Of a stretch of DNA of 50,339 bases, positions 1,711 through 50,339 are shown one piece after another (the stretch's first letter is position 1; each line of letters opens with the position of its first letter). The notes beneath the pieces were generated by a model, which worked only from the letters and a program-made list of their open reading frames with translations, did not search any database and had not been told where the DNA came from. The position numbers and the translations under genes are program-made. Source of the stretch: a virus; the IMG/VR virus record IMGVR_UViG_3300030117_001589, positions 1 through 50,339 of that record. One strand, written 5' to 3'.

Positions 1711-3273
1711 ATGGCTGATGTTTTCGGAATGGAAACATATGGAGCGTCTCCAGATGCTGGACACAGTGGAACATCTGTACCCGGCACAGGAGATCTCAGG
1801 CGGCGATATAACTTTGGGGATAGGATTTCTGAACTATCAATAGCGCAAGACCCTTTCTTCCGATTTGTATCACAAGTCGCAAAAAAACCTACGGATGATC
1901 CTCAGTTCAAATTTACTGAACAGAGACATTCGTATCACAAAAGATATGCATATGTTATGGGATTCGTTTCTAATGGATCTGATGAATTTGCAGATTCTGA
2001 ATTAGATCAATCAAACGCAGGAGCGGCTGTATCAGCAGCTGGTCAATCAGTTGAACTTTACATGGCTTCAGACTATAAATCTGCTGGTAATATTACTAGT
2101 ATTCATGGTCAATCAGCTACTAAAGTTGATGTTGGTGCAAGTGGAACAAGACCTACTTTTTTCCTACCCGGTCAAGTAGTTAAAATTCCAATAGCTTCAA
2201 CAACTGATGGTGTCGCAGACGGTTATCATTTAATGAAAGTTGATAGTGTTACTGATGGTCTTACTAAAGATGGTAAAGAATGCGTAAAACTTTCTGGTAA
2301 GATTGTTAAGTTTGATAGCGCAGGTAATGAACTTGCTTCTTTCTTAACTAATAATTTTACGCCTGGTGCTACTGATGCGACTGCAGATAGAGACGCTGGT
2401 GGTGAATTAGTATACAATCAAAATATAGCAACTGGACTTGAACCAATTAGATCTTACGTTGTGGGAACTGCTCATTCTCAAGGATCTGGATACCCAGAAT
2501 CTTGGAAAGATCAACCTTACTCAAGTGCTGTAGGATTAACTCAGATCTTCAAAACTGCAATGGCAATGGATAATACTACAAGAGCAACTGTTCTTAAGTA
2601 TGAACCTAACGAATTTGCAAGAATTTGGAGAACAAAGTTAATCGAGCATAAGTATGACATCGAAACAGCGTTATTATTTGGATCTCAAGCAGAAGTGGAT
2701 GGCGTTCAATATACAGAAGGTGCAATCAGTTTTGTTACTAATTATGGTAACATCTTTGATGGTTCTGGTATTGGTGGAACTGGTACAAAGTCTCAGGATG
2801 ACTTTCTTGATGATATGTCTCAATTCTTAGATCCTCGTTACAATAATGCAAATGCTACATTGTTCATGTGTTCAACTGATACTTACAATTGGATGCATAA
2901 ACTAAGTGGATACTTTTCAGCTAATGTTCAGAAAGTTGCTGGTGTAAGTGATGGAGCTGGAAGAGCTGATTTCCAAATTGCAGGTCGTAAGGGTGTCTAT
3001 GGATTAGATGTTACACAAGTTTATACTCCTTATGGTGTTATGAATCTTGTTCGTAATGTTCATCTTGATGGATCTCCAGTTAAAATACTTGCTATGAATA
3101 TGGCTCAATGTGCATACCGACCATTGGTAGGTAACGGATTGAATCGTGATACTGCAGTATATGTTGGAGTTCAAACTCTTGAGAATAGTGGTGTTGACCG
3201 TAGGGTTGATTTAATTCAAACTGAAGCCGGTATGGAGTTTCGGATGCCCGAAGCACATGCTGTCTGGAAATAG
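1711..3273 (+). CDS. major capsid protein
   Basis: This 520-residue protein follows the scaffold gene by 40 bases and is the best candidate for the shell subunit. The N-terminus (MADVFG, then ASPD, then LRRRYNFGDR) is followed by a charged segment, a long beta-rich middle with insertions, and a C-terminal half (~270-520) with alternating helices and strands ending in EFRMPEAHAVWK. The size suits an HK97-fold capsid protein with an insertion domain. Base composition is less AT-extreme here and codons with C or G are more frequent than in neighbours, as is common for highly expressed genes. The first ~30 residues recur in the small protein at 12400-12666. The start has a weak GAGG site. Confidence 0.8.
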   Translation: MADVFGMETYGASPDAGHSGTSVPGTGDLRRRYNFGDRISELSIAQDPFFRFVSQVAKKPTDDPQFKFTEQRHSYHKRYAYVMGFVSNGSDEFADSELDQSNAGAAVSAAGQSVELYMASDYKSAGNITSIHGQSATKVDVGASGTRPTFFLPGQVVKIPIASTTDGVADGYHLMKVDSVTDGLTKDGKECVKLSGKIVKFDSAGNELASFLTNNFTPGATDATADRDAGGELVYNQNIATGLEPIRSYVVGTAHSQGSGYPESWKDQPYSSAVGLTQIFKTAMAMDNTTRATVLKYEPNEFARIWRTKLIEHKYDIETALLFGSQAEVDGVQYTEGAISFVTNYGNIFDGSGIGGTGTKSQDDFLDDMSQFLDPRYNNANATLFMCSTDTYNWMHKLSGYFSANVQKVAGVSDGAGRADFQIAGRKGVYGLDVTQVYTPYGVMNLVRNVHLDGSPVKILAMNMAQCAYRPLVGNGLNRDTAVYVGVQTLENSGVDRRVDLIQTEAGMEFRMPEAHAVWK

Positions 3274-5844: not shown

Positions 5845-8712
5845 ATGGCAGATAACTTAAGAAAGTTTACAACACAAGAAGTGTTGAATAAAGTGTATAC
5901 CGATTCTTCAGGTGACACAATAGGACTCCAATCACAAACATCAAAAGAAACATTAAATGCAGTATTAAATAATTCTACTAATAGTTTAAATGTATCTTTA
6001 TCTGGTAGCAATACTATTTCAGGTGATGTTACGATTACAGGAGATTTAACTGTACAGGGTAGTGCTACTAATACATTCGATGAACAGATACAAGGAATAG
6101 TCCAAATATTAGGTTCTACTGGAACAGGTGCTACACCAGCAGGAACGTTACAATTAACAACTTCTGAAACAACTATAGTTGATAATGACCAACTTGGAAG
6201 GATAGAGTTTTTAGCCGCTAGTGAGGCAGATGGAAGCGACTCTCGGTTGGTAGGAGCTTCAATAGCCGGTGAAGCTGAGGCTACTTTTGCGGCTGACAAT
6301 AATTCTACTGCTTTAGTTTTTTCTACAAACACATCAGCGGCCGCTACTGAACGTATGAGGATAGATAGCTCTGGGAATGTTGGTATAAATGTTGCGGCGC
6401 CCACACAAAAGCTTGATGTAAGAAGCGCAGTAAATAGTGTCCATGCTATGTTTTCTGGTCAAGATGGTAGAGGTTTGTTAATAGAAACACAAGCCACTAC
6501 AAACAATGATGATACAGTTGTTTTAAATGCCCAAACAAGTACAGGAGAAATAGCATTTGAGGTTAATTCAAATGAAAAAATGAGGATAGATGACTCTGGT
6601 AATGTAGGTATTGGAACTAGCTCACCAGACTATCAGCTTGAGTTAGAACAAGCTGGAGGTGGATTTTTAAGTTTTAAAACTACAGATACAGAGTTACAAA
6701 ATAATGATGTATTGGGTACAATTCAATTTGGGGCTGATGATGCGACTGCTACTGGGATAGACATAGGTGCTAAAATTGTTGCTACAGTAACAGATAACTT
6801 TCAAACTGCTAGTAGTAACACAGATGCTCCAACAAGGCTAGACTTTTTTACACAAGATAATACTTCTACTGATGTAATGAGTACAGTAGGAGCTACTCTT
6901 ACATTAGGTGGAGATGATCAAAGTGCTATTTTTAGAGGTAATGTCGGTATTGGAGCTACAAGTCCTTCAGAGGCTTTGCACATTTCATCAAGTTCTGCAT
7001 CTGCTACACCTGTTCTTTTATTGGAAAATACGAATGCTAATAATTTACCGGGGCAGATAAATTTTTATAAAAACACTTCTGATGAAGCTGATAATGATTT
7101 TCTTGGTCAAATAGACTTTGAGGGTAATGATAGCGGTGCAAATAGAACTGTATTTGGAAGAATGAACTCAAAATCAACTGATGTGTCAGATGGTAGTGAA
7201 GATGGAAACATAGTTTTCTCAACAATGAAAGCTGGTACATTAACAGAAACTTTAAGGCTTGAATCTGGATTAGTCGGTATTGGAATATCGCCATCAAAAG
7301 AACTTCATATAGCAAAATCTGGTGAAGCTCAAATGATAATAGATTCTCATGTTGCTGGTGCAAGTGGTTCATCTATTCGATTAAGGCAAAGTAGAAATAC
7401 TACTATTGGAAACCATACTGCTATAAATGATAATGATGAAGTCGGAGATATAACATTTCAAGGTTCAGATGGAAATAGTTATGAATCTGTTGCAAGTATT
7501 AGAGGTAAGGTTGATGATGGTAGCGTAAGCGATGGAAGTATTGGTGGCTCATTAGTTTTTAAAACTGGTTCAGCTAATGGCACGAGAATGATACTTGATG
7601 ATAACTCCAGAGTCTCACTAAGTAATAATGATAGTGGTGGTACAGATAATACTATTTTTGGGAAGTTGGCAGGAAATTCATCAACAGGTTTGAGATATTC
7701 TGTAGCATTAGGACATAATGCACTTAATACAGAAGTTGGTACTGATGCCTGTGTAGCAGTTGGTTATAGTGCTTTGCAAGTGCAAAATAAAAATGCTTCA
7801 AGCCATACAGGAAATAGTGCTGTAGGCTACCAAGCTTCTATGAATCAAGGTACAGGAACAAAAAATACTGCTTTAGGGTATAGAGCGATGAAGGGTGTTG
7901 AAACTAATCACCATTCAGACAATACAGCAGTGGGAGCAGATGCATTGTTGGCTGTTACGACAGGAGGTCAAAATGTATGTCTGGGTTCAGAAGCAGGAGC
8001 ATCAATAACTTCAGGACAGAATAATGTCCTTGTTGGTTTTGAATCTGGTGAAACAGGATCTGGGGATATTGACACTGGTCAAGCTAATACAATTATAGGT
8101 AGTGAAGCATCCGCTGGGGCTTCAGGAGCAATTAATAGATCAGCTATTGGAAGAACAACTGTAGCAGTAGCAGATAATTCAGTAACTCTTGGTAATGCTT
8201 CTGTAACTGCTGTTTATATGGCGCAAGATAGTGGAGCTACAATCTATGCAAATGGAATAAATTTTCCAGATGATGCCGCTACCGACCATAGTGCAGATGT
8301 CAATACATTGGATAATTATGAGGAAGGTACATACACAGTAACAATGACACCAAGTACAAGTGGAACAATCACTGTTAATTCTAGTCAAAATACAGGCAAC
8401 TATACAAAAGTAGGAAACGTAGTTCATGTAAATTTTAAAGTAGACATTTCATCAGTTAGTAGCCCAGATGGTTTTTTTACTATTGGTTTACCTTTTACTA
8501 TTGGAGATGGAACACATGAATCTAAAAGGTTTACAGGTTCTGTTGCTGTTACTGGAAGTACTGCAAATGTAAGTGATTTTGTTGTAATTGGAATTGAAAG
8601 CGAGGGAGGTGCAAGAGTTTATTTGGGAGATGGAACTGCATTAGCAGATGATTCTGCTGATGCTTTGCAAAATGGAAACGATTTATACTTATCAGTAACA
8701 TATCAAGTTTAA
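5845..8712 (+). CDS. long tail fibre / receptor-binding protein
   Basis: This 955-residue protein is rich in Gly, Ser, Thr and Asn. Residues ~50-75 carry the fibre motif GDVTITGDLTVQGS. Residues ~165-490 hold at least four copies of a repeat built on MRIDSSGNVGIG (near 6355, 6580, 6940 and 7265), typical of trimeric fibres. Residues ~600-780 hold head-type repeats of the YadA/haemagglutinin kind (NTAVGADALL, NNVLVGFESG). The C-terminal ~130 residues form a beta-domain ending in SVTYQV, likely the receptor-binding tip. No S74 intramolecular chaperone motif is visible. It probably forms a trimer that recognises the host surface. It is followed by small genes on the same strand. Confidence 0.85.
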   Translation: MADNLRKFTTQEVLNKVYTDSSGDTIGLQSQTSKETLNAVLNNSTNSLNVSLSGSNTISGDVTITGDLTVQGSATNTFDEQIQGIVQILGSTGTGATPAGTLQLTTSETTIVDNDQLGRIEFLAASEADGSDSRLVGASIAGEAEATFAADNNSTALVFSTNTSAAATERMRIDSSGNVGINVAAPTQKLDVRSAVNSVHAMFSGQDGRGLLIETQATTNNDDTVVLNAQTSTGEIAFEVNSNEKMRIDDSGNVGIGTSSPDYQLELEQAGGGFLSFKTTDTELQNNDVLGTIQFGADDATATGIDIGAKIVATVTDNFQTASSNTDAPTRLDFFTQDNTSTDVMSTVGATLTLGGDDQSAIFRGNVGIGATSPSEALHISSSSASATPVLLLENTNANNLPGQINFYKNTSDEADNDFLGQIDFEGNDSGANRTVFGRMNSKSTDVSDGSEDGNIVFSTMKAGTLTETLRLESGLVGIGISPSKELHIAKSGEAQMIIDSHVAGASGSSIRLRQSRNTTIGNHTAINDNDEVGDITFQGSDGNSYESVASIRGKVDDGSVSDGSIGGSLVFKTGSANGTRMILDDNSRVSLSNNDSGGTDNTIFGKLAGNSSTGLRYSVALGHNALNTEVGTDACVAVGYSALQVQNKNASSHTGNSAVGYQASMNQGTGTKNTALGYRAMKGVETNHHSDNTAVGADALLAVTTGGQNVCLGSEAGASITSGQNNVLVGFESGETGSGDIDTGQANTIIGSEASAGASGAINRSAIGRTTVAVADNSVTLGNASVTAVYMAQDSGATIYANGINFPDDAATDHSADVNTLDNYEEGTYTVTMTPSTSGTITVNSSQNTGNYTKVGNVVHVNFKVDISSVSSPDGFFTIGLPFTIGDGTHESKRFTGSVAVTGSTANVSDFVVIGIESEGGARVYLGDGTALADDSADALQNGNDLYLSVTYQV

Positions 8713-11271: not shown

Positions 11272-11487
11272 ATGGCACAAAAAAAAGGTAAAAAAGCTGG
11301 TTGTGGTGTTGGTCAAGTATATAATCAAAAATTAAAAAAATGCGTTAAGGCAAATACTTCTTATGAAAAAAAATTAAGAACAAGAAACCAAGATAATCCA
11401 AGTTCTGAAAATTATTCTGGCCCAAATTTAGATTCTAAAGGGAATTTTGTATCAAGAAAAAAACGTAGAATGAAGAAGTCGTTGTAA
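11272..11487 (+). CDS. small basic protein with Cys-pair motif, first of the mini-protein island
   Basis: This 71-residue protein is very Lys/Arg rich (MAQKKGKKAGCG..., ending RKKRRMKKSL). It contains C-x2-G-x2-Y-x4-LKKCV at ~11-25, also found in the protein at 12400-12666 (C-x2-G-x2-Y-x4-LKKCV). The two cysteines may form a disulfide or bind metal. A strongly basic charge and tiny size suggest nucleic-acid contact or packing into the virion. It is coupled to the next gene by TAATG. The family is not recognised. Confidence 0.55.
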   Translation: MAQKKGKKAGCGVGQVYNQKLKKCVKANTSYEKKLRTRNQDNPSSENYSGPNLDSKGNFVSRKKRRMKKSL

Positions 11488-11612
11488 TGCCAGCAGCTAA
11501 AAAACAATCTAAAAAGTCTTGTGAATGTGAAAAGCATATAGAATTTATATATGAAGAATTAGAAGCATTAAGAGATAAGTTAGAAAAAGTATTAATAAGG
11601 ATGGGATTATAA
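11487..11612 (+). CDS. 41-residue helical mini-protein
   Basis: The ATG overlaps the preceding stop. The product opens with a basic stretch and a CEC pair (KKQSKKSCECEK), then forms one amphipathic helix (IEFIYEELEALRDKLEKVL). The compact operon position and the helix pattern support a real gene. The function is unknown; dimerisation through the helix is likely. Confidence 0.45.
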   Translation: MPAAKKQSKKSCECEKHIEFIYEELEALRDKLEKVLIRMGL

Positions 11613-11613
11613 A

Positions 11614-11901
11614 ATGGCTCGTAAGCAAGGAAATATGCCAACAAAAAATAAAAAGAACTTTCGTTCTACTAAATCTGGAGCAGGAATGACCAGAGCTGGT
11701 GTAGCAGCTTATAGAAGAATGAATCCCGGTTCTAAACTAAAAACAGCAGTTACAGGAAAAGTAAAGCCTGGTAGTAAGTCTGCTAAAAGAAGAAAGTCGT
11801 ATTGTAGTAGATCTGCAGGTCAAATGAGGATGCATGGTATTAATTGCTCAAAGACTCCAGATAAAAGAATATGTGCGGCTAGAAGAAGATGGAGGTGTTA
11901 A
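11614..11901 (+). CDS. basic Arg/Lys-rich protein of a phage-wide small family
   Basis: This 95-residue protein has net positive charge above 25. A conserved-looking core (AGMTRAGVAAYRRMNPGSK, then LKTAVTGKVKPGSKSAKRR and KSYCSRSAGQ) matches a small domain I recall from many phages, often as a C-terminal or stand-alone unit near structural genes. Four Cys residues in the second half (YC, NC, IC, RC) could bind zinc. It probably binds nucleic acid or is packaged with DNA. The biochemical role is not established to my knowledge. Confidence 0.6.
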   Translation: MARKQGNMPTKNKKNFRSTKSGAGMTRAGVAAYRRMNPGSKLKTAVTGKVKPGSKSAKRRKSYCSRSAGQMRMHGINCSKTPDKRICAARRRWRC

Positions 11902-12048
11902 ATGGCTAAGAAAGATGCTTGTTATCATAAAGTAAAAGCAAGGTATAAGGTATGGCCTTCTGCTTATGCTTCAGGAGCTCTTGTTAAGTGTAGAAAAGTA
12001 GGAGCTGCTAATTGGGGTAATTCAAGTAAGAAAAGGAAAAAGTCATGA
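11902..12048 (+). CDS. 48-residue 'WPSAYASGALVKCRK' mini-protein
   Basis: This 48-residue basic protein contains DACYHKVKARYKVWPSAYAS followed by GALVKCRKVGAANWG. From memory this motif is common in T4-like cyanophages and also in large algal viruses, where it occurs alone or attached to other proteins. Two Cys residues flank the core. The role is unknown; a DNA-binding or virion-packaged role is plausible from its charge. It follows the previous stop directly and its own stop overlaps the next start (ATGA), so its expression is tied to neighbours. Confidence 0.65.
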   Translation: MAKKDACYHKVKARYKVWPSAYASGALVKCRKVGAANWGNSSKKRKKS

Positions 12049-12206
12049 ATAAAAGTGTAAGAGCGCCTAAAGGTTATCATTGGATGAAATCTGGTAAAGG
12101 TGTAAAACTTATGAAGAATCCTAGAGGTGGATATAAAGCACATAAAGGTGCTAGCCTAACTGCTTCTTTTAAAGTGCAGATGGCTCCACATTCTAAAAAG
12201 AAATAA
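12045..12206 (+). CDS. 53-residue basic mini-protein
   Basis: This protein contains RAPKGYHWMKSGKGVKLMKN and a later GGYKAHKGASLTASFKVQ segment, another recurrent small domain I recall from environmental phages. It is rich in Lys and Gly with no Cys. It overlaps both neighbours (ATGA at the start, TAATG at the end). It is likely co-translated with the rest of the island. The function is unknown. Confidence 0.6.
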   Translation: MNKSVRAPKGYHWMKSGKGVKLMKNPRGGYKAHKGASLTASFKVQMAPHSKKK

Positions 12207-12400
12207 TGGCAAAAGAAGGTCTAAAGAAATGGTTCTCAAGGAATCAAGGTAAAGGATGGGTAGATTGTAAAACTGGTAAACCTTGCGGTAGACGTAAAGG
12301 CGAGAAGAGAAAAGGATACCCTGCTTGTAGACCTACAATGGCTCAATGTACTTCTGCTATGAAAAAGAAAACTAGTAGCAAAAGGATAAGTTGGAAATAA
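12206..12400 (+). CDS. 64-residue Cys-rich basic mini-protein
   Basis: This protein contains GLKKWFSRNQGKGWVDCKTG, then PCGRRKGEKRKGYPACRP and TMAQCTS. The four Cys residues are spaced as in a small metal-binding or disulfide-bonded fold. The same motif string is one I recall from phages and from giant viruses of algae and protists. It overlaps the preceding and following genes by one base (TAATG). Its role is unknown. Position and charge link it to the other island proteins. Confidence 0.65.
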   Translation: MAKEGLKKWFSRNQGKGWVDCKTGKPCGRRKGEKRKGYPACRPTMAQCTSAMKKKTSSKRISWK

Positions 12401-12666
12401 TGGCTGACGTATTTGGATTATCTGATGTGGCATCTCCAGACACAGGCAGAGGAGGATCAACAAATCTTAAAACTGGAGGAATGAGAAGGAAATACAATAT
12501 GAAACATAAAGGTAAAATGAAAAAATGTCCTGCAGGAAAAATGTATGATATGAAACTTAAAAAATGTGTAACTAGAAAAGGTGATCTTAACAAAGATGGT
12601 AAAATGTCTAGTTATGAAAGCAAACGATCTGCAGCTATTCAAAAATCAATGAAAAGGGGTATGTAA
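12400..12666 (+). CDS. 88-residue basic protein with a copy of the capsid-protein N-terminus
   Basis: The start is ATG 12400, overlapping the preceding stop. Residues 1-~32 (MADVFG, ASPD, G, TGG, MRRKYN) match the first ~36 residues of the major capsid protein at 1711 (MADVFG, ASPD, G, TGD, LRRRYN), including order and spacing. Residues ~33-70 carry the C-x2-G-x2-Y-x4-LKKCV motif shared with the protein at 11272 and a calcium-loop-like DLNKDGKMSSYE. The rest is Lys-rich. I infer a module able to mimic or join the capsid N-arm fused to a basic tail. The function is not known. Confidence 0.65.
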   Translation: MADVFGLSDVASPDTGRGGSTNLKTGGMRRKYNMKHKGKMKKCPAGKMYDMKLKKCVTRKGDLNKDGKMSSYESKRSAAIQKSMKRGM

Positions 12667-12833
12667 TGCCAAGTAAAGCAAAATGCAAAAATTGGAAAAA
12701 ATTAGGATATAAAAGTGAGAAAGATTGCACTTCTTATGGAAAAAAGAAAAAGAAAACTGCAATTGAATATCAATTAGAAAAAACTATGGAAAAACAATCT
12801 GGAAAAAGTTTACAAAAAAAATATTCTACTTAG
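12666..12833 (+). CDS. 55-residue basic protein, paralogue A of the MPSKAKCK pair
   Basis: The ATG overlaps the preceding stop (TAATG). The product begins MPSKAKCK, then has G-Y-K-S-E-K-D-C and SYGKKKKK, followed by a helix (IEYQLEKTMEKQ). The next gene begins with the same eight residues and has the same C and SYG positions, so the two are tandem duplicates that have diverged. It is basic, with two Cys in its first half. The function is unknown. Confidence 0.55.
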   Translation: MPSKAKCKNWKKLGYKSEKDCTSYGKKKKKTAIEYQLEKTMEKQSGKSLQKKYST

Positions 12834-12863
12834 TTTTAATTATTAATAAAAAGGAAAAATAAA

Positions 12864-13085
12864 ATGCCAAGTAAAGCAAAGTGTAAAATGATGGTAGGGC
12901 CTGGTAAGAAATATAAAACTATGTCTGAGTGTATGAGTTATGGTGGTAAAAAAATGGGTAAAACTCAAAAACCTATGGCATCTGCAAAAGCAGAACAAGA
13001 CATGGTTGGAACTGCTATGGCTAAATCTAAAAATGTTAGAATGAAAAATCGTATTAAAAAGAATTTAAGTAGAAGTGGTTACTAG
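12864..13085 (+). CDS. 73-residue basic protein, paralogue B of the MPSKAKCK pair
   Basis: This gene starts behind AAGGA in the short gap after its paralogue. MPSKAKCK, then KKYKTMSECMSYGGKK, mirrors paralogue A. The rest is Lys/Met-rich and ends KNLSRSGY. The stop TAG overlaps the GTG start of the next gene. The strong positive charge and lack of acidic segments suggest interaction with nucleic acid. I recognise no characterised family. Confidence 0.55.
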   Translation: MPSKAKCKMMVGPGKKYKTMSECMSYGGKKMGKTQKPMASAKAEQDMVGTAMAKSKNVRMKNRIKKNLSRSGY

Positions 13086-13261
13086 TGGGTAAGAAAATAA
13101 GTGTAGACCTATTTAGTAATGACATTGGTTTTGGTGACACAGTTAGTCGTGCAATCAAAACAGTAACTAGAGGAAAAATAAAGGAGTGCGGAGGATGCAA
13201 GAAAAGACGAGATATATTGAACAGGATGATTCCGTACAGGAACGCTACGAATCGGGGGTAA
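13085..13261 (+). CDS. 58-residue Cys-pair protein (GTG start)
   Basis: The start is GTG 13085, overlapping the previous TAG. It ends at 13261 in a frame different from the next gene. Residues ~34-50 hold IKECGGCKKRRDILNRMIP, a CxxC-x-RR-x2-LN motif I recall from many small phage proteins, often next to structural genes. The single CxxC pair would need a partner or dimerisation to bind zinc. The N-terminal half is beta/polar. The presence of this motif makes the unusual start and overlap credible. Confidence 0.6.
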   Translation: MGKKISVDLFSNDIGFGDTVSRAIKTVTRGKIKECGGCKKRRDILNRMIPYRNATNRG

Positions 13262-13431
13262 GAAATGGTGGTGCTATATCTGGATCTGAGGGTGGACTTA
13301 GATTAGATATATTTGACCATGATGTAAACTCTGAAGTAGACTTTACGGAAGACGATTGTTCTTTATGTGAACTTCCAGAACACGCTCAAAATCTTATTAT
13401 AGAAGATATAGAGTACGAACAAAATGCCTAA
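13195..13431 (+). CDS. 78-residue acidic protein overlapping the Cys-pair gene
   Basis: The frame runs from ATG 13195 (AAAGGAG about ten bases upstream) and shares 67 bases with the Cys-pair gene. Unlike the island proteins it is acidic (LRLDIFDHDVNSEVDFTEDD) and has a second CxxC (DDCSLCELPEHAQ). Its stop overlaps the start of the 1013-residue tail gene (ATGCC at 13424). It may balance or chaperone the basic proteins or be a small virion part. No family is recognised. Confidence 0.55.
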   Translation: MQEKTRYIEQDDSVQERYESGVRNGGAISGSEGGLRLDIFDHDVNSEVDFTEDDCSLCELPEHAQNLIIEDIEYEQNA

Positions 13432-21073: not shown

Positions 21074-24000
21074 ATGCCTAGTCAAAGAGCGATACAAGCT
21101 TTATTAGATTTACAGAGAGAAAAACTACAAAACTCTGAAGAACCATTTGCATTAGCAAGTGCCTATAATTTAAATGAACCTAATGAATCTCAAAGGTTTA
21201 AAATCCAAAGGCAGCAACCTGAACAAACAGATAAAGATAGCAATGTAAGTTTATTACAAGCAGTTGGAGCTGGTCTATATGAATTTGGAGAAAGTGCATC
21301 TTTTGGCGCTGTAGGTTTTGCTGAAATAGGTGCTGAGAGAGCATTAGGTAGAGAGATAGAATTTCAAGAATATTTTAGACAGGCTCAAGAAGAAAGTTCT
21401 TTAGCTAAAGTATTAGGTGGTGTTGGAACAGGAGCGGGTTATTTACTAGGTGCTCCTATGAAACTAACAGCTAGGGTACTACAAAAACCTGCTACATCTA
21501 TTGTATCTAAGTTAGTAGGTAAACAAACAATAGGTAAAGCATCAAAAGAGTTTAGTGAAGAAGCATTAAAAGCTGGTATAGAAAAAGGTGTTGTTAATAA
21601 ATATACAAATGTATTAAAAGGTAAAACTGCTTGGGCTTCTACTAAAGGGAAAGATGCAAATAAAAAGTTTGCAGAACAATTTAATAACGAAATAAATAAA
21701 AGAACAGCTAGGGCATCAGCTAGGAAAGAACTTACAGATAAACAAATTGAAGTTGTTCAAAACATGAAAGATCGTATCATTAATAATGGTATACCTTTAC
21801 AAAATCTTTCTCAATATGCTCGTACAACTTATGGTAATAGTAAGTTTGGTAGGTTTGCTACGGAAGCTTTACATGATGCATTTGTATTTAGTGTAGCAGA
21901 TGCAGTAATGGATGTTTCTTTTCAAGGGCAACAATTAGTAAAAGATGAAAATGCTAAATTTAATTTAGGGCAGACTGGATATGCAGTCGCAACTGGATTT
22001 CTTGCTGGTACAGCTATAAACGCAGCTACAGCACCATTTGGGCCATTAGGTAAGATGTTTCAATCTAGAAAAGATTTTGCTAGTGGATTAAGAGCATACT
22101 TAGGTACAAATACTTATAAAGGCAAAGACTTAGAATATTTATCTGGTAATATGGCTGAAATAGCTAATATGAATCGTAAAAACAATATTAGCACAAGTTA
22201 TACATTTACATCTGATGGTAAACAAAAATCTATTGATTTATTACAAGACTATAATAATAGCAAAACAGTAAATAGTCAGGAAATAGCAAAACAATTAAGA
22301 AAAGAATTTGGTGACAATGCTGAGAAAAAAGCACAACAATGGTTAATGTCTCAGAAAAGATTCTATGGTAAAGAGATTATAAAAGAAGCAACAAGAGAGG
22401 GATTAGAAAATTATAGATTATTATTTCCTAGAATGATGGTTGCTGGTGCGGCTATGTCTGGAGTTCAAGGTATACAGATGTATGTTCAAGGTCAGGACTT
22501 ACAAGCAGAAGATTTTATATCTAGTATGTTGATAGGTGCATGGACACAAAGAAGAGGTAACTTTGCTAGAAGCGCAGATTTAAATGGTGAAATAAATAAT
22601 TTAAGAAAAACACTAGATCATTTAGGTATAGATAATTCTCAAACATTTTTTGCATCTACATTTTCTAAACCAAACAATGTATTTGGAGTAGGTTTATCAC
22701 GAGACAATGAAACATTAAAAAATTATTTGATAGAACAAAGAATAGTTAGTGATACGGATGAAACTATTACATCTGATAAATTACCAGAAGGAGAAAAAAC
22801 GTTTTTAGATTTAGAATCTGGAAGACCATTTGATCCTTATGATGGCAAACTAAATAAACTATATCAGATTATGAGTGAAGACTATAATCATGTAAAAAGT
22901 TTAGATCAAATATCTGAAAGACAAGCAAGAAGAATTAATGAAATTATAGAAACACAAGGTTTTAAGACAACAGAAGACATAGATAAGGCATTTACTCAAA
23001 GAGTTGAAGATGCTACGCAGAACATGGAAGAAAACTTAGTAAATGTATTAAATAGATTAAGATCTGCTGACTTAGATGGATTTAGTGTAGATGCAAATAA
23101 TAATAAATTAGTTATACCTAATTCATTTGAAATAGATTCTAAGTTACTTAAAAAAGCAAAGGATGGAGAGTTTGAATCTTGGTTGGGTAAAAGTGGAGAG
23201 CAAGCAGCTGAAGAGTTATTAAATGCAAAAAGAAGTTTCCATACAGTTGAAAAAATATTAATAGGTATAGATAGAGCAGAACCTAACAATACTAAAGATA
23301 ATAAAATATTAACAGAAGATGCATTAAAAGATTTTTATAATATAATAAGGGATTCTGAAAAATCAATTAATAGAATGACGAATCCTAAAGATGGTAGAAG
23401 AGAATTTAGATATACAGATTCAGATTCTTATATTATTCCTTTAATACAAAATAAAGGTAAGTTGTTTACTCAAAGAATATCTGATGTATTGTCTAAAGAT
23501 ACAATGCCTCAAAACTTACAATCATACTTAATAAATTCTGGATTACTTAAAAAAACTAAAGATGGCGAAGTAATGTTAATAGATGATATTTCTAGAATTG
23601 AAACAGATTATGAAAATAAAGCAAATGATTTAGGTAGATTGCATGGAATACTAATGGCTTTAGGTGATTATAAAATAACAAGTGAAAAACCAAATGAACC
23701 AAAGACTACTCAAATAGAAGCTTTAAAATTTATACTTCAAGATAATAAAATAGACATAGATACATTCAATAAACCTTCTATGAAGTTTTTATATCAAATG
23801 ACATTGAATGATATAAATAGAAGAAGAATGAATAATAAAGTTACTAATTCTAATGATATTAATTTTTTATTAAAACAATCTGGAAGTGCAATGTATAGTG
23901 ACACTGGTTTATTATCTGAAGGTGGTGTATCTGGATTTAGTTTATATAGAGTAAATATACCTCATACTGTTAGAGGGAGAAATTCAGATAATACATTAGA

Positions 24001-27000
24001 ATATGAATATAATAAAATACTAGAACGTTTAAATGAAGAAACAGATGGATTGGTAAAAATATCAGAAAGAAAAGTTGTTACAATTAATGAAACTCAAGGT
24101 AATCAATTAAAATTAAGAATGTTAGAAATATATGATGCTGATACAAAAATGGATAATCAAGTATTGCATGAGTTATTTGATACAATGAGCAACTCAAGAT
24201 TAGATAGTGTTAAGACTAGGATGCTTGAGTATATGAAAACATTAGGTGATCCTGCTAGAATAGACATACTAACTATGTTAAGAAGGCAGGGAATTATTAA
24301 AAGAAATGTAGATAATAATTTAGAAATAAATGAAAAATTTACATTAGAAAAAATAACAGAAGAAGCTGATGTTATAAAACGTAGACAAGAATTAAAAGAT
24401 GCATTAGAACCTATTAATAAAAAATTAATGAAGAGGGGATATACTGAAGAGTTTATTCAAAAAGAAATAGCAGATAGGCAAAAGATTGATAGGAGATACT
24501 TTAAAGAAGCTAGAGATGAAGTTAAAAATCCTTCAATTGGAATAGATGAATTTTATAGAAAATACCAATTTAAAATAATAAAAGGTGAAGTTGATGGTAT
24601 TCCAAATGTTGTTGAAATTAAAAGTTACGCAGATGAAAGCAATGCAGATAAAGTAAATAGATTTTTAAGTAAAGAATATATGTTAGGTGATGATGGTAAT
24701 TTAAATAAAGAATCAATAACTAAATTGCAAAATGATTTAGTATATAGAGGAGAATCTTTTAAAGATCTTAGTCCTAGAAAAAAACAAACTGCTATACAAG
24801 ATGTAACTCAAATTGTTTTTGGATTAAAAGATAGAATGGATCTTCCAACTATGTCTATTAGAAATGGAACTATTATATATGATCCTGTAAAAGAAAGAGA
24901 ATTTTTTCAGAAAAATCCTGTATTTAATTATTTAAATGATTTAAACATAGACTATGCAATATTCAATAATAACGTTACATATACTGAGTTTAATGATTAT
25001 ATAGTAGATAGAACATATAATATACTTAGCACAGAATCTTTAGGTGATAAAGAAAAAGCAAATATAGATAGAATAAGAAGTAGAGTTGCTGAGCAATTAA
25101 AAGATAAATCTTTAGGGTTAGATCTTAGCACTCAATTAAATGAAAAACAATTAGCTGATGGTGAATATGGTATTGTTAAGTTAGATATTTATGATGGTAT
25201 GGATAGTATTGTTATAAATAGAAGTGCTATGAAAAATATAGTAGATGACTTCTCAAGATTTTATAATCAGTATAAAGATAAATTAACAGGCAATTCTAAA
25301 AAATCAATAGAAATGCTTAATGAAACATTTAAAGAAACAAAGAATATACATAGATATGATGAAGCTAGTATAGAATTAGCAACAAGATATTTAATATTAG
25401 AAACATCATTAAAGAGTGAAACAGACCATGAATTATTAAAAGTATTAAACTCAAATGATGCTCAAGAAATTGGTAAATATATTAAAAGAATTAAACTTGT
25501 AACTACTAAAAATTTTATAAGACCTAATGAAGAATATTTAGAGTCTATTATACAATCTAGAACTGCTTTAGGAGATGATAAAGCATCTAAGTTAATTAAA
25601 AAAAGATTAAAAATAGAAAGTCACAGAGTAGCAATATGGGATGATGGTACTGAAAATATGGCAACTTTAATTAACGAAGATTTAGTTAATGAGTTTGGAG
25701 ATCAAATACCTGCCTTAAAAAATTATTCTCTTAAAAATATTATAGGCAATGCACATGAAAAAGTTTCAGGTTTTGATAGTATAAGTTTTATTTCTAAAGA
25801 TGCTATGATGGAATACCATACATATATGGGGCATAGTTCTGAATCTAAAAATCCAATTAAACCTATTATATCATCTCAAGGTGAAGGTAAAACATTATTA
25901 TATGGTAAAACTTTATTTGTATATAGTCCTTCTTTAGATGGATTTTTTAAAAGAAATAATGTAGATATACTATTAACTGGTTCAGGTGCAAAAATATATG
26001 ACCCTAAGATAGTAGGGGGTAAAGAACAAGATAGTGTAATTAAAGATGTAAGATGGGATGAATTAGTTGATAGTTACACAATAACAAAACCAGATAATCT
26101 TATAAGGGATGTAGATATAGATGCAATAGGATTTAGACCAGAAAAAGATGCAGATTTATTATCTGCTAGTGAATCAGATGCAGACTATAACTATATGAAT
26201 AGAAAAGAACATGAAGATGCTTTTAAAGGTTTGTTAGATGAATTAACTGCTAATCTTAATTCAATGGATAAGATATTAAAAGATCCATATAAGATGAATG
26301 CTTTTATGAAAGAGCAACTTATGAACAATAATATACCTAGTTCACCAGAACAAGGAGCTTTGGGTAATCTTAGCAATATGATGTATTATTTACAATTAAG
26401 TGATGCAGCTAATCCATATGATTATAGTTCAAACCAAGTTCAAAAATATTTAGCACAACAATATATAGATACATTATTTAGTACAAGAAGATCTATTACT
26501 AACAGAGTATACTCTGATAAAGATAAAAAACTAGCATTACCATCTAATAGATATGGAGGGCAAGCTCCACTAATTCAATCAGCTAAAGGGTATCTTGGCA
26601 AAGGATTGAAGACCAGATTGTTTCCAACTTTGTTTAACGATAATAATGAAATGATCTTAAGAGGTCAAATAGTTCTTCCATTTGCAGAAAGAAATACAAG
26701 TTTATCAGAATTATCAGATGATAAAAATGTAAGGATTGTACAGAACGAAAGAATATTATCTTTAGAAGAATTTAAAAATGAAATAAAAGACACAGTTAAA
26801 GATATAGATGAAATACCTAATTTAACTACATTAAGAGATGGTGATAATAAAACAATTGAAAGCATTGATGATATATTAAATAATGCAACTGTTGGTAGTG
26901 TCCATGACTTTTTAGAATCATATTCTAAACTTGTAAATAGAAGATATGAATTAGGTATAGTATCTAGAAGAAATCCAAGAACAAGACCTAATGATATAAC

Positions 27001-29725
27001 TATGTTAGGATTAAAAGGTTTTCTTGATAAAGAGCAAGGTTTAGGTGTAGAGATAAATAGTTTTGATATTGTTAATACATATGAAGGTGATTACGATGCT
27101 GATAAAGTAGATTACTTTTTTGCACATAGTGATTATATGTTTGATTATATAAAAAGAAATCAAGCATACTATGTTCAAGGAATAGACCCTGAACAATTAC
27201 AACAGAAACCAACATTTACTTTTCAAATGAACGCAGATGATTCAAGGGTAGCAACATTATCTAAAATGGGTCAAAGTATTGCATTTAAAAAAGCAATAGG
27301 AATAGCACAAAAAACTCCTAGAAAGTTAAATTATTTACAAAACTTAGCTAACGTAAATCATTTATCTGGCAAAACAGTATCTCCAGAATGGGAAGATGTA
27401 GCAAGAGGAGAAGAGGGTAACTTTGTAGGGCCAGGAATATTATACAACAGTAAAGTAAATGCTGAAGGAAAAGCAACAGAAGTAGTTACAATAGATACAG
27501 AGTCTCTTGCTTTTTATCAAAGGGCTGCTTTAGAGGTTCAATATATTATTGACGGAGCAAACAACTTAAATAAAAATATAGCAGGTAATATTTATGAATG
27601 GGCAGAAGGTTTCTTATTTCCAAAATATGAAAACTCAATATCTCCTACCGATGCTAAGTCTGAAGATTTAAAATCTATATTAAGAAATGGAAGAACTGAA
27701 AATGGTAAGAGAGTAAGAATATTTTCTAAATATGAATTAGTAGATGGTAAGTATAGAGAAGTAAGAGAGGATTTAAATAGCGCAGATAAACTAATTATAA
27801 ATGAGTTTCTTAATCAACAGAATAAATTGCTTAATGTATTTGGAGATACTAAATATGTTGCTGGTGAAAAAAGAAAAACAAGTTTTTATGATTTAAATAT
27901 GGGTAGTATGGCTTTTAGAAACTTTCATAAAGATATTTATCAAGGTATGCAAAGACAATTATTTTATAAAAAGAAAGGTATACAAGATAAAAAATATTTA
28001 AAAGAAATATTAGATCCAGAAAACGAAAGATTTAAACCTATATCTTCAACAGTAAGAAATGTTTATGATGGTGAATCTGGTAATTATTTAGATAGGATAG
28101 CTATTCAAATAGCACAAAAAGAAATATTAGAAGATAGAAAACAATATAATTTAGATATAGAAACTTATCAAGATGTAGAAAATTGGTATCAAGCAATGAT
28201 AAGTAGTCCTTCTAGGTTTGAAGAATCAAGTAGATTGTTAAATGTATTTGAACAAGAAAAACCAACAGGAGCAACAATAGAAGAACAAAGAGAATTTGTA
28301 TCTCAGGTAGATCAAAGAGCAAAAGGAATTAAAGACGATACCCAAGCATTTAATAGACAGATTGCTATAATTAAAAAATTAGATAATAAAAAGAAATCTA
28401 TTGCAAGAACAAACTATTCTTGGAAATGGAAAAAGAAAAAAACAGATAATATAAATTGGGTTATAAAAAAGTTAAGAGCTGATGTAAAAACTAAATTTGG
28501 TAAAAATATAGATAAGATACATTCAAAAGATTTAACATATAAAAATTATATAAGTGTAGAAGATAGTAATCTTAAATCAAGTATTATTCATGCAAATACA
28601 ATGAACGCTATGCTCAGAAACTTTTTTGGAACTAAGTATGATAATTGGTTTGAAACATTAAATGATGATGCTAGAAAAGATCTAAAGTCTATTAAAGATT
28701 TTAATAGGCAAACATATGGATCAAATACTTTGTTAGATGAAATATTTCCTTATGGTAAAAAATCTTTAATAACAAATGAAAATATTATAAAGTATGTTGA
28801 AGATTATAGAGGAGATATGGGTTCTGTATATGAACTAAGACAAAACTATCTTACTAGAATGATAGAAAAACATGGTGTAAACTTTTTATATGCATACATG
28901 GAACCTACTAGAAATAGAGATGATATAGGTATATTTAATAACAGACCAATAGCAATTCCATACAAAGAAAGTGCTAGGTATAGACATGGATTGCAGACAA
29001 TAGTTGGAATAGCAAATGGAACTTTAAAGTTAGGTGAGGATTCTACTTCTCAAGAACGAGCAAGAAATTGGGGAGAGTGGATATTAAATAGCACAATACA
29101 ATCTAATGAACATTATAGAAGATTTTTTGATAAAGACATTGCAATGATGAATTTAACAGATTCTAATATGGAAAGGTTTGGATTAATGCCGTTTGATAGA
29201 GGTACAGAAAATAGATTAAGAGAAGATGGTTCTGATTTTCAATGGTTATCTGAAATGCTACCATCAAATCCATTATCAACTATAAACAAATCTGTTACAC
29301 AATTTTATTCTAGTTATGCAAAGATGATACCAGATAAAACAAAAGATGATTATAAAGAGTTTTTAAAAGGTATGAACGATCTTGAAGAGTTTAGTTCTAG
29401 GAAAGATTATATTAATCCTATGAAGTATTTAAAATTAAAGTTAGAAATGGATGAATCATTTTTAGAGATACTTAAGAAAGATATATTTACAATGGGTAAT
29501 GAACAAGGGATACCTACTCACTTAAAAAATAATCCTATGTATACACATTTAAAATATTTAAAATTTAATCCTAAACAAGTTAAGTCAACTGATAAGTTAG
29601 TGGGTATGTTAAGAGGCGTAAATCAAGTGCATGAAGATTTAATGACTGGTGCAAGACAAAATCCAATGAGAGATTCTGGTTACGAAGCATTTAGAATGAT
29701 GAAGGACTATGCAAAGTGCAAGTAG
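21074..29725 (+). CDS. giant 2883-residue virion protein with RNA-polymerase-like active site
   Basis: The largest gene. The N-terminal ~500 residues contain hydrophobic, Gly/Ala-rich segments (~304-324, ~453-466) like ejected proteins. Residues 1964-2011 read SRRNPR...TMLGLKGF... then YEGDYDADKVDYFF. R1966-x-P1968 lies 38 residues before DYDAD (2006-2010). In bacterial RNA polymerase beta', NRAP is followed 33 residues later by DFDGD, the Mg-binding aspartates. A Lys/Gly segment at ~1600-1641 (GEGKTLLYGKTL, DILLTGSGAKI) could be the partner beta-type barrel, and RGQIVLP at 1863 a barrel strand. I infer a packaged two-barrel RNA polymerase fused to ejection domains, as in crAss-like phages. 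The Gly-to-Ala change in DxDGD is unusual. Confidence 0.6.
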   Translation: MPSQRAIQALLDLQREKLQNSEEPFALASAYNLNEPNESQRFKIQRQQPEQTDKDSNVSLLQAVGAGLYEFGESASFGAVGFAEIGAERALGREIEFQEYFRQAQEESSLAKVLGGVGTGAGYLLGAPMKLTARVLQKPATSIVSKLVGKQTIGKASKEFSEEALKAGIEKGVVNKYTNVLKGKTAWASTKGKDANKKFAEQFNNEINKRTARASARKELTDKQIEVVQNMKDRIINNGIPLQNLSQYARTTYGNSKFGRFATEALHDAFVFSVADAVMDVSFQGQQLVKDENAKFNLGQTGYAVATGFLAGTAINAATAPFGPLGKMFQSRKDFASGLRAYLGTNTYKGKDLEYLSGNMAEIANMNRKNNISTSYTFTSDGKQKSIDLLQDYNNSKTVNSQEIAKQLRKEFGDNAEKKAQQWLMSQKRFYGKEIIKEATREGLENYRLLFPRMMVAGAAMSGVQGIQMYVQGQDLQAEDFISSMLIGAWTQRRGNFARSADLNGEINNLRKTLDHLGIDNSQTFFASTFSKPNNVFGVGLSRDNETLKNYLIEQRIVSDTDETITSDKLPEGEKTFLDLESGRPFDPYDGKLNKLYQIMSEDYNHVKSLDQISERQARRINEIIETQGFKTTEDIDKAFTQRVEDATQNMEENLVNVLNRLRSADLDGFSVDANNNKLVIPNSFEIDSKLLKKAKDGEFESWLGKSGEQAAEELLNAKRSFHTVEKILIGIDRAEPNNTKDNKILTEDALKDFYNIIRDSEKSINRMTNPKDGRREFRYTDSDSYIIPLIQNKGKLFTQRISDVLSKDTMPQNLQSYLINSGLLKKTKDGEVMLIDDISRIETDYENKANDLGRLHGILMALGDYKITSEKPNEPKTTQIEALKFILQDNKIDIDTFNKPSMKFLYQMTLNDINRRRMNNKVTNSNDINFLLKQSGSAMYSDTGLLSEGGVSGFSLYRVNIPHTVRGRNSDNTLEYEYNKILERLNEETDGLVKISERKVVTINETQGNQLKLRMLEIYDADTKMDNQVLHELFDTMSNSRLDSVKTRMLEYMKTLGDPARIDILTMLRRQGIIKRNVDNNLEINEKFTLEKITEEADVIKRRQELKDALEPINKKLMKRGYTEEFIQKEIADRQKIDRRYFKEARDEVKNPSIGIDEFYRKYQFKIIKGEVDGIPNVVEIKSYADESNADKVNRFLSKEYMLGDDGNLNKESITKLQNDLVYRGESFKDLSPRKKQTAIQDVTQIVFGLKDRMDLPTMSIRNGTIIYDPVKEREFFQKNPVFNYLNDLNIDYAIFNNNVTYTEFNDYIVDRTYNILSTESLGDKEKANIDRIRSRVAEQLKDKSLGLDLSTQLNEKQLADGEYGIVKLDIYDGMDSIVINRSAMKNIVDDFSRFYNQYKDKLTGNSKKSIEMLNETFKETKNIHRYDEASIELATRYLILETSLKSETDHELLKVLNSNDAQEIGKYIKRIKLVTTKNFIRPNEEYLESIIQSRTALGDDKASKLIKKRLKIESHRVAIWDDGTENMATLINEDLVNEFGDQIPALKNYSLKNIIGNAHEKVSGFDSISFISKDAMMEYHTYMGHSSESKNPIKPIISSQGEGKTLLYGKTLFVYSPSLDGFFKRNNVDILLTGSGAKIYDPKIVGGKEQDSVIKDVRWDELVDSYTITKPDNLIRDVDIDAIGFRPEKDADLLSASESDADYNYMNRKEHEDAFKGLLDELTANLNSMDKILKDPYKMNAFMKEQLMNNNIPSSPEQGALGNLSNMMYYLQLSDAANPYDYSSNQVQKYLAQQYIDTLFSTRRSITNRVYSDKDKKLALPSNRYGGQAPLIQSAKGYLGKGLKTRLFPTLFNDNNEMILRGQIVLPFAERNTSLSELSDDKNVRIVQNERILSLEEFKNEIKDTVKDIDEIPNLTTLRDGDNKTIESIDDILNNATVGSVHDFLESYSKLVNRRYELGIVSRRNPRTRPNDITMLGLKGFLDKEQGLGVEINSFDIVNTYEGDYDADKVDYFFAHSDYMFDYIKRNQAYYVQGIDPEQLQQKPTFTFQMNADDSRVATLSKMGQSIAFKKAIGIAQKTPRKLNYLQNLANVNHLSGKTVSPEWEDVARGEEGNFVGPGILYNSKVNAEGKATEVVTIDTESLAFYQRAALEVQYIIDGANNLNKNIAGNIYEWAEGFLFPKYENSISPTDAKSEDLKSILRNGRTENGKRVRIFSKYELVDGKYREVREDLNSADKLIINEFLNQQNKLLNVFGDTKYVAGEKRKTSFYDLNMGSMAFRNFHKDIYQGMQRQLFYKKKGIQDKKYLKEILDPENERFKPISSTVRNVYDGESGNYLDRIAIQIAQKEILEDRKQYNLDIETYQDVENWYQAMISSPSRFEESSRLLNVFEQEKPTGATIEEQREFVSQVDQRAKGIKDDTQAFNRQIAIIKKLDNKKKSIARTNYSWKWKKKKTDNINWVIKKLRADVKTKFGKNIDKIHSKDLTYKNYISVEDSNLKSSIIHANTMNAMLRNFFGTKYDNWFETLNDDARKDLKSIKDFNRQTYGSNTLLDEIFPYGKKSLITNENIIKYVEDYRGDMGSVYELRQNYLTRMIEKHGVNFLYAYMEPTRNRDDIGIFNNRPIAIPYKESARYRHGLQTIVGIANGTLKLGEDSTSQERARNWGEWILNSTIQSNEHYRRFFDKDIAMMNLTDSNMERFGLMPFDRGTENRLREDGSDFQWLSEMLPSNPLSTINKSVTQFYSSYAKMIPDKTKDDYKEFLKGMNDLEEFSSRKDYINPMKYLKLKLEMDESFLEILKKDIFTMGNEQGIPTHLKNNPMYTHLKYLKFNPKQVKSTDKLVGMLRGVNQVHEDLMTGARQNPMRDSGYEAFRMMKDYAKCK

Positions 29726-48242: not shown

Positions 48243-50339
48243 ATGGCAAGAGTAACAAAAAAATCTAAAGCGCAAGTAAATAAACAAATATGGGATAAAG
48301 CAAACAATTCCCATAGACAAAGATGGCAAACAGTTAGTCAAAAAGGATATGATTTTTATCTTAATGAGCAATTAACCAAAGACGAACAAACTATGTTAGA
48401 AGAATCTGGTATGCCAACATTTACTATAAATAGAATAACTCCTATTATAGAAATAATGAAATACTTTGTTACTGCTAATAATCCTAAATGGAAAGCTGTA
48501 GGAGCAACTGGTGATGATGCTGATGTAGCTCAAGTTCATTCAGACATAGCAGATTATTGTTGGTATTTATCTTGTGGTAAATCATTGTATAGTCAAGTTG
48601 TTTTAGATTCTCTTACAAAAGGATTAGGTTTTTTTCTTATAGATATTGATAAAGATGCAGATCGTGGAATGGGTGAAGTTAGATTTAATAGACTTGATCC
48701 ATATGATGTATTTGTAGATCCTGCTAGTAGAGACTTTTTATTTAGAGATGCAACATTTATTCAGGTACGAAAAAATATATCTAGAGCAAGATTAATTAAT
48801 ATGTTACCTCAATTTGAAACTAAAATAAAAAAAGTAACTAAAGGAAGCGATGTTGTTTCTTATTCTCAAAGAGATGCAGAGTTTACAGATAGTATACAAC
48901 CTGAAGATTTAACATATGGTGTAAATATGGATGCTGAAGATGAGGATATACTTCCATATTACGAAACATATAGTAAGAAAAAATTTAAATATAGAAATGT
49001 GTATATAAAAGTTGAACCTACAGAAGCAGAACTTTTAATGTTAAAAGAACAAGTTCAAGATCAATTAGAAGCATTTAAACAAGAAATAGAAGTTCAATTA
49101 ATAGAAAAACAATTACAAGTAGAACAACAAGTCCAATCTGGAGAAGTTATTCCAGAGAGAGGCAAATTAATGATAGAAAACTCTCAAAGAATGGCTGCTC
49201 AAGGTATACAAGAAAAAGAAATGGAACTTATATCTCAAGCAAGAGAAGAAGCTACTATTGTTAAAGAACAAGTAATGTCTGAAGCACAATTTTTGCAATT
49301 TGAAAAAGATAAAAACTTTAAAAAAAATATAGTTGATTCTGTAGAATTTTATGAAAATAGGATAATTAAAACTTGTAGTGTAGGAGACGATACATTTTTA
49401 TTTGAACAAACAATACCTATTAGTGAATATCCAATAATTCCTATGCCTTATATGTACACAGGAACACCTTATGCTATGAGTGCTGTAACTCCATTAATAG
49501 GTAAACAACAAGAAATAAATAAAGCACATCAAATAATGTTACATAATGCAAATCTTTCTTCTAATCTTAGATGGATGTATGAAGAAGGATCTGTACCTGA
49601 AGATGAATGGGAAAAGTATTCTTCAGCGCCAGGCGCATTATTAAAATATAGACAAGGATTTTCCCCTCCCACACCAATACAACCAGCACCTATTAACAAT
49701 GCTTTTTTTACAGTTGTTCAACAAGGCAAAACAGATGCAGAGTACATTAGTGGTGTACCTTCTGCAATGATGGGATTCTCTCAAGATCAAGCGGAAACAT
49801 ATAGAGGATTACTTGCAAATGATGAATTTGGAACAAGAAGATTAAAAGCGTGGATGAATAGTATTGCCGAACCAGCTTTAGAGCATGTAGGTCGTATATT
49901 TAAAATGATGGCTCAAAATCATTATACAATAGAAAAAGTTTTTAGAATTGTACAACCAGAAGCAAACAATCAAGAAGAAAAAGAAGTAAGAATTAATGTA
50001 AATCTATATAATGATTATGGAAAAGCAGTAGGTAAATACAAAGATTATGCATCTGCAAGGTTTGATGTAAGAATTATCGCTGGTGCAACTTTACCATTAA
50101 ATAGATGGGCATTGTTAGAAGAATACTTTAGATGGTATCAAGCAGGATTAATTGATGATATTGCAATGTTATCTGAAACAGATATAAGAAATAAAGAAAA
50201 AATTGTAGAAAGAAAGTCTATGCTTTCTCAAATGCAAGGTCAATTACAATCTGTACAAGAATTAGTAAAAGAAAAAGATGGTACAATAGAAACACTACAA
50301 CGTCAATTAGTACAAGCAGGTATTAAGATGAAAGTAGGA
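48243..50339 (+). CDS. portal protein, N-terminal and central part (truncated by window edge)
   Basis: Residues 1-699 of a P22-like portal start one base after the endolysin stop. The N-terminal arm, the stretch RFNRLDPYDVFVDPASRDF and a central insertion of long charged helices (EVQLIEKQLQVEQQVQSGEV) are followed by the conserved IPMPYMYTGTPYAMS and QQEINKAHQIMLHNANLSS segments. The final 196 codons (from 49752) match 1-588, so the gene continues across the join. The full length would be about 751 residues, giving a ring for DNA passage and neck attachment. Confidence 0.85.
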   Translation, partial: MARVTKKSKAQVNKQIWDKANNSHRQRWQTVSQKGYDFYLNEQLTKDEQTMLEESGMPTFTINRITPIIEIMKYFVTANNPKWKAVGATGDDADVAQVHSDIADYCWYLSCGKSLYSQVVLDSLTKGLGFFLIDIDKDADRGMGEVRFNRLDPYDVFVDPASRDFLFRDATFIQVRKNISRARLINMLPQFETKIKKVTKGSDVVSYSQRDAEFTDSIQPEDLTYGVNMDAEDEDILPYYETYSKKKFKYRNVYIKVEPTEAELLMLKEQVQDQLEAFKQEIEVQLIEKQLQVEQQVQSGEVIPERGKLMIENSQRMAAQGIQEKEMELISQAREEATIVKEQVMSEAQFLQFEKDKNFKKNIVDSVEFYENRIIKTCSVGDDTFLFEQTIPISEYPIIPMPYMYTGTPYAMSAVTPLIGKQQEINKAHQIMLHNANLSSNLRWMYEEGSVPEDEWEKYSSAPGALLKYRQGFSPPTPIQPAPINNAFFTVVQQGKTDAEYISGVPSAMMGFSQDQAETYRGLLANDEFGTRRLKAWMNSIAEPALEHVGRIFKMMAQNHYTIEKVFRIVQPEANNQEEKEVRINVNLYNDYGKAVGKYKDYASARFDVRIIAGATLPLNRWALLEEYFRWYQAGLIDDIAMLSETDIRNKEKIVERKSMLSQMQGQLQSVQELVKEKDGTIETLQRQLVQAGIKMKVG
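49752..50339. repeat. terminal redundancy, right copy (imperfect)
   Basis: Collinear with 1-588, with about 34 mismatches and no gaps. The amino-acid changes cluster at a GGD-to-ANN block (left copy 211-219). See the left copy. Confidence 0.9.

Follow-up and report, generated by a model that had tools for sequence, protein, structure and literature searches.

A short arm resembling the coat protein N-terminus, joined to exchangeable basic tails, in a group of uncultured marine phages

A small basic protein of an uncultured virus begins with an arm of 33 residues resembling the N-terminal arm of the major capsid protein (MCP) encoded by the same DNA. The resemblance, the modularity of the arm, its in-frame fusion to a tail, the exchange of tails among relatives, a Shine-Dalgarno (SD) stretch embedded in the arm codons and purifying selection are read from the sequence; from these features we infer a binding partner for the arm, entry into particles, a role for the tail and the expression of two forms of the protein. 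The interpretation we prefer, held tentatively and given nearly an even chance, is that the arm may be a capsid-address tag, either a copy or a mimic of the coat N-arm, set on exchangeable cargo.

The window, i.e. the whole stretch of DNA analyzed, has 50,339 bases and comes from IMG/VR, where it is the record of an uncultured virus. The two ends (1-588 and 49752-50339), both within the portal gene, match over about 588 bases without gaps at 94.2% identity; the record is therefore probably near a full genome, and the genome is probably circular or circularly permuted, and assembled from two strains. The MCP (1711-3273, plus strand, 520 aa) belongs to the SU10_MCP family (Pfam PF17236, PHROG 1328). 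Residues 35-518 match PF17236 with an E-value of 3.2e-20 and 73.3 bits, above the gathering cut-off of 24.1, and the protein matches the PHROG 1328 major head protein at 6.5e-6. An HK97 fold is expected from membership in this family (PMC9509320); the AlphaFold model (pLDDT 49.3) is too poor for use. The MCP N-arm, residues 1-34 (MADVFG..ASPD..TGDLRRRYN), is encoded at 1711-1812, and its TG-x-LRR-x-Y residues do not vary among 61 MCPs. The plus-strand gene at 807-1670 (287 aa) encodes a probable scaffolding protein, so called from its position between portal and MCP, and the candidate partner of the arm; the protein has no PHROG matches, and no Pfam matches above cut-off. No cultured relative was found by MCP search among 50,697 phage records at 1e-5. 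In bacterial genomes MCP relatives reside in two metagenome-assembled contigs only, L269 (NHFY01000002.1) and L270 (PCCY01000017.1), too short for a pairing test. They are binned as Flavobacteriales TMED123 and Roseobacter NP10, respectively, which are weak host hints; the contigs may be free virus. Elsewhere the window contains an ORF of 2,883 residues (21074-29725), followed by one of 950 residues.

The small basic protein was accurately located in the preliminary description, its plus-strand gene starting with an ATG at 12400, encoding 88 aa (pI 10.3, charge about +16) and stopping at 12666. The likeness to the MCP N-terminus claimed there is also real. Identities include MADVFG, ASPD, TG, RR and YN, and the Smith-Waterman alignment of MCP residues 1-34 to residues 1-33 of the small protein (12400-12498) has a score of 84 with one gap of a single residue, a score reached by none of 20,000 shuffles, in which the maximum was 58. 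Among the N-termini of the ORFs in the window only those of the MCP and the 88-aa protein score 50 or more against the MCP arm, and a six-frame search of the whole record finds arm-like sequence at these two genes only. The FG-[DE]R-[VI]SEL continuation of the MCP after the arm is absent in the small protein, which goes on with MK..; the likeness is confined to the first ~33 residues, and the small protein is therefore not an MCP.

Judged by sequence profiles, the likeness is one between protein families, beyond the single pair found in the window. MADLF-type MCPs are a clade apart from the window's MCP. An HMM made from their arms alone, run in six frames over all the loci collected, picks nothing but MCPs and small proteins below E = 1 (small proteins: best 1.3e-6, median 3e-4), two apparent exceptions with low E proving to be MCPs. 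When RRxYN is left out of an HMM of MADVF-type MCP arms, only small proteins are matched (best 1.6e-4, median 1.8e-3), the next unrelated sequence having an E-value of 4.6. The reverse search, with a profile of small proteins lacking RRxYN, is weak, the best MCP being at 0.07. In a profile of the small proteins which have the SD elsewhere (the shifted group described below), MCP arms rank first, with E-values of 1e-3 to 1e-2. The comparison of the profiles of the two arm families gives a probability of 98.3, to be read with care because alignments are shallow. Residues 1-33 of the small protein match the MCP-arm profile from the first Met, more weakly without RRxYN. As measured by these searches, the similarity of the arms without RRxYN is modest. 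The pair singled out in the preliminary description is a favorable one, scoring 84 vs. 28-77 for the other pairs residing in one genome. The charge of the arm is -1.4 in the MCP and +1.5 in the small protein; DTG[RK]G and LKTG(G), the most conserved features of small arms, are only partly common to the MCP, and the resemblance to the MCP of the same phage is lower in distant small arms (MADVIGLSDVSSKDTG).

The tail of the 88-aa protein is encoded at 12499-12666 and begins with an internal ATG (Met34), from which a second product of 55 aa (pI 10.3) is predicted. It includes a Cys-flanked motif, CPAGKMYDMKLKKC (residues 43-56, 12526-12567), found by direct reading, and an EF-hand-like loop, DLNKDGKMSSYE (residues 62-73, 12583-12618), recognized by eye from the DxNxDGxxxxxE pattern only and matching no Pfam EF-hand at E 0.1. 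The AlphaFold model of the protein is poor (pLDDT 55) and unusable, and a search of solved structures gave a single weak match, 9in6_M, outside the arm. Pooled pairwise dN/dS (Nei-Gojobori, 13 relatives with the tail type of the window) is 0.26 in the arm and 0.21 in the tail; both parts are real protein. The Cys motif CPAGKMYDMKLKKC is also found in a free gene at 11272 and at the C-terminus of an HNH-like ORF in relatives. In the MADLF-type phages this HNH-like ORF lies between portal and scaffold (L195:8707-8997, L198:6600-6899, L066:8736-9026, L227:4769-5050), and ends in CKSGYVWSSKIKSC or a close variant, that is the Cys motif of the tail. The EF-hand-like module is present in other small proteins too; in the form GDLNKDGKMSSYE it occurs as a mobile unit, either C-terminal or free, among many otherwise unrelated marine phage proteins, as in L130-L161 and in Pelagibacter phage HTVC041P (17294-17371).

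The arm gene is part of an array of small basic Cys/Lys-rich genes (11272-13261, plus strand), eight to ten in number, which includes DUF6321 at 11614-11901 and is well kept in order among relatives. A conserved 64-aa gene (12206-12400, plus strand) overlaps the start of the arm gene by one base. Its protein is nearly invariant; in the relatives inspected the gene immediately precedes the arm, and it is absent in G052 and G081. Farther down, the genes at 13085-13261 and 13195-13431 overlap out of frame for ~66 bases around ECGGCKKR/MQEK, an overlap of a kind seen again in L112, L116, L122, L123 and L125.

Viral contigs yielded 79 loci for the MCP and 80, in part identical, for a more distant MCP, as well as 80 loci with a match to at least a portion of the small protein, and additional small-protein loci. 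The preliminary description had made its proposal depend on similar pairings in relatives, and MCP and small gene are found together in the window as well as in no fewer than 10 further records (G004, G008, G009, G010, G020, G021, G022, G025, G072, G079). None of the MADVF-type records checked covers the locus and misses the small gene, and those having one of the two genes only end, as far as checked, before the place of the other. Co-occurrence of the two genes thus holds in all the MADVF-type records found to cover the locus, and fails in G051, a 54-kb genome with a MADLF-type MCP and no small gene. No partner with a MADLF-type arm was found in MADLF phages; weak matches to short proteins, considered as partners, turned out to be HNH-like ORFs with the Cys motif. 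Since records are fragments, absence is seldom informative. In G081 a gene of 2,083 residues lies upstream, and the contig ends before the expected place of the MCP. G052 (L224/L229/L234; 111,116 bases) has the small gene and a MADLF-type MCP, and two different SU10-type MCPs, at 6701 and 66795, both on the minus strand; it may be chimeric, made up of two phages, or else an unusual double genome.

Co-variation of the two N-termini, also proposed as a check in the preliminary description, was not observed. The mean similarity of arms is 64.33 in pairs within genomes vs. 64.29 between genomes (permutation p = 0.46), and a lock-and-key relation between MCP arm and small arm was not found, own pairs being no better than mixed ones. 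The Mantel correlation between MCP arms and small arms is 0.60, a value not corrected for shared descent. In distant clades the small-protein arms do not follow the arm of their own MCP.

At least 56 distinct arm ORFs, 72-110 aa long, were collected. In all of them the arm is in frame with a basic tail, and none (0/56) stops before the tail. On one type of arm at least seven different types of small basic tail were counted by eye from the alignments, BLAST clustering having merged most of them through common Lys/Cys motifs. Tails distinguished are that of the window (Cys motif and EF-hand-like loop), KCK..W..MGYKS..DC with or without the EF-hand-like loop, GSAS..RLI.CM, C..WK.LG[FY].S.AGC, CKVGQVYDQKLKKC..NRQQS, EKCKKGFKKVGGKCV, ACV.K.I..G....AH..CYP, and, in G052, ECHVNEVYSKKLKRCV. 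A constant N-terminal tag with diverse payloads, as in T4-type internal proteins, is thus found here. In other contigs, four of the tail types stand free, as genes immediately following the arm gene (L019:21393, L112:3338, L122:3286, G052:107858-108082), and free tail genes in relatives start at the junction Met. L112 and L123 have the same DNA throughout the arm, as far as ATGAAAAA, and then different tails, the tail of L123 being the free gene next door in L112; in this pair, the tail was swapped exactly at its ATG. The idea of a module bringing a basic tail to the capsid stands as far as the arm is separable, always N-terminal and joined to at least seven basic tails, and finds no backing in co-variation with the MCP arm.

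In the window, the RR(K)YN codons (AGA AGG AAA TAC AAT) contain an SD-like stretch, AGAAGGA (12484-12490), with a pairing energy to the anti-SD of -5.7 kcal/mol, a value reached at 32% of gene starts and at only 2.8% of the 253 ATGs that lie in frame inside the genes of the window. At the same place the MCP encodes RRRYN by AGG CGG CGA TAT AAC, with no ATG behind. In all the arm ORFs (56/56) the junction Met is preceded by an SD-like stretch of -5.3 kcal/mol or better. Because RR(K)YN overlaps the SD, it is a confounder for the likeness to the MCP. In the shifted group, made up by 17 ORFs, the ATG is 5-6 codons further downstream, and it is these additional codons that hold the SD; a CGN codon encodes the first Arg in 16 of these ORFs, and RR[TK][YH]N is kept in all 17. 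Its persistence in codons which make no SD argues for constraint at the protein level, and the notion that the RRxYN likeness is wholly due to the SD is in part rejected by these 17 cases. In a few members of the unshifted group the SD is kept while residues drift (NRSNN in G052, KRGHN in L264, RKKYN). Read at the codon level, RRxYN is held as protein, the same codons being in most members also the likely ribosome-binding site. A conserved in-frame internal ATG has thus its own SD, which moves with it; as the SD of the tail lies within the arm codons, one gene probably gives both an arm-tail protein and a free tail. The embedded SD with its internal start, as the exchange of tails, goes beyond what the preliminary description saw. 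Relatives share descent, so that 56/56 are not 56 independent events; independent evidence comes from the variety of tails, from the four pairs of free and fused genes and from the displaced SD.

The coat N-arm is the scaffold-binding site in P22 (PMC9965877); in 80alpha, it is the helix of the N-arm that the scaffold contacts with its C-terminus, and the motif involved is also used by SaPI1 CpmB (PMC5644958). Scaffold or lattice could therefore draw a free arm into procapsids, with its basic tail carried inside. According to the capsid-address reading, the tag would be recognized during procapsid assembly by whatever recognizes the MCP N-arm, the likeliest candidates being the scaffold and the inner surface of an adjacent coat subunit, and the basic tail would be built into the procapsid as internal cargo, either a DNA-neutralizing or an ejected protein. 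The tag would have a fixed place among the small basic genes of the array, its fusion partner would change through deletion or recombination at start codons, and the tail would keep its own ribosome-binding site in the tag codons, tagged and free forms being both made. The full picture, in which a coat N-arm is reused as a portable packaging tag on rotating small basic proteins, the tag codons hold a ribosome-binding site, the tagged form is particle-bound and the untagged one cytoplasmic, and the tag is reloadable by start-codon recombination, is possible and, taken as a whole, doubtful.

The resemblance to the MCP arm would also fit a regulator of assembly, the arm filling empty or special MCP N-arm sites (portal vertex, pentons) or competing for the scaffold, and controlling assembly or capsid size, with tails serving as interchangeable DNA-binding or stabilizing parts. 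There are precedents, since a terminal motif common to two proteins, as in the 80alpha scaffold and SaPI1 CpmB, can lead to competition for coat protein and to an altered capsid size (PMC5644958), and Ccm of SaPIbov5, a homologue of the coat protein, redirects assembly (PMC8569155). The exchange among at least seven types of tail, however, suggests that the tail is payload, and one sister-clade genome does without the small protein; a regulatory role is rated unlikely. That the arm binds a partner outside the capsid, of host or phage origin, its likeness to the MCP being convergence on a short pattern uninformative on the place of action, is decidedly improbable. It would account for the lack of co-variation, for the modest similarity without RRxYN and for the conserved DTGRG and LKTGG proper to small arms, but searches in both directions, made in six frames of all loci, reach E below 0.1 with a single non-self family, the MCP arms, matched at the exact N-terminus.

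The arm might otherwise be a translated leader, its reading opening the ribosome-binding site of the basic gene behind by translational coupling; the peptide would bind nothing in the capsid, and its MCP likeness would be partly SD-encoded and otherwise convergent. A strong SD lies within the arm codons in 56/56 ORFs, the start of the arm gene overlaps the preceding stop, and residues have changed at some sites where the SD persists, as NRSNN in G052 and KRGHN in L264. Yet no arm ORF stops before the tail, the frame is kept across tail swaps, the shifted ORFs retain RR[TK][YH]N in codons that make no SD, and the dN/dS of the arm is 0.26; the leader is an improbable explanation. In favor of chance, the stretch is short, and the pair first picked was the most MCP-like one (84 vs. 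28-77); against chance stand the 20,000 shuffles, none reaching the score, and the MADLF-type HMM, by which it is rejected, while conservation and purifying selection in many relatives refute a non-coding artefact. Chance or artefact has a negligible probability.

If the capsid-address reading is true, the N-arm of a coat protein alone can act as a loading signal, and would provide a short transferable tag for cargo, a route to the internal proteins of other SU10-like phages via copies of the coat N-arm, and a clear case of payload swapping behind a fixed tag by start-codon recombination. The phages involved are common in marine metagenomes, with no cultured member in the collections searched. 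The results are also a warning that short likenesses at gene junctions can be partly written by ribosome-binding sites, and need checks at the codon level.

In lambda C/Nu3, an in-frame internal start gives a second, shorter product. The gene described here is similar in having an in-frame internal ATG with its own SD, and differs in that a short tag forms the upstream part, relatives exchange the downstream part, and the second product is predicted. The internal proteins of T-even phages have only a capsid targeting sequence (CTS) in common, small payloads being diverse and changing while the tag stays, as observed here (PMC3012670). In T4, however, the CTS has the scaffolding core as its target, and the mature protein is a product of proteolysis (76-residue IPI*; PMC3012670), whereas the present tag resembles the coat N-arm, and packaging is predicted. 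The 80alpha scaffolding protein and SaPI1 CpmB are likewise two otherwise different assembly proteins with a common short terminal motif (RIIK); that motif is C-terminal, belongs to two scaffolds, and was seen by cryo-EM to bind the coat protein (PMC5644958), while here the motif is N-terminal, common to the coat protein itself, and read from sequence. With SaPIbov5 Ccm, a second coat-related protein is made beside the normal one; Ccm is a full coat homologue encoded by a satellite (PMC8569155), whereas only the N-arm is involved here, in the phage's own genome.
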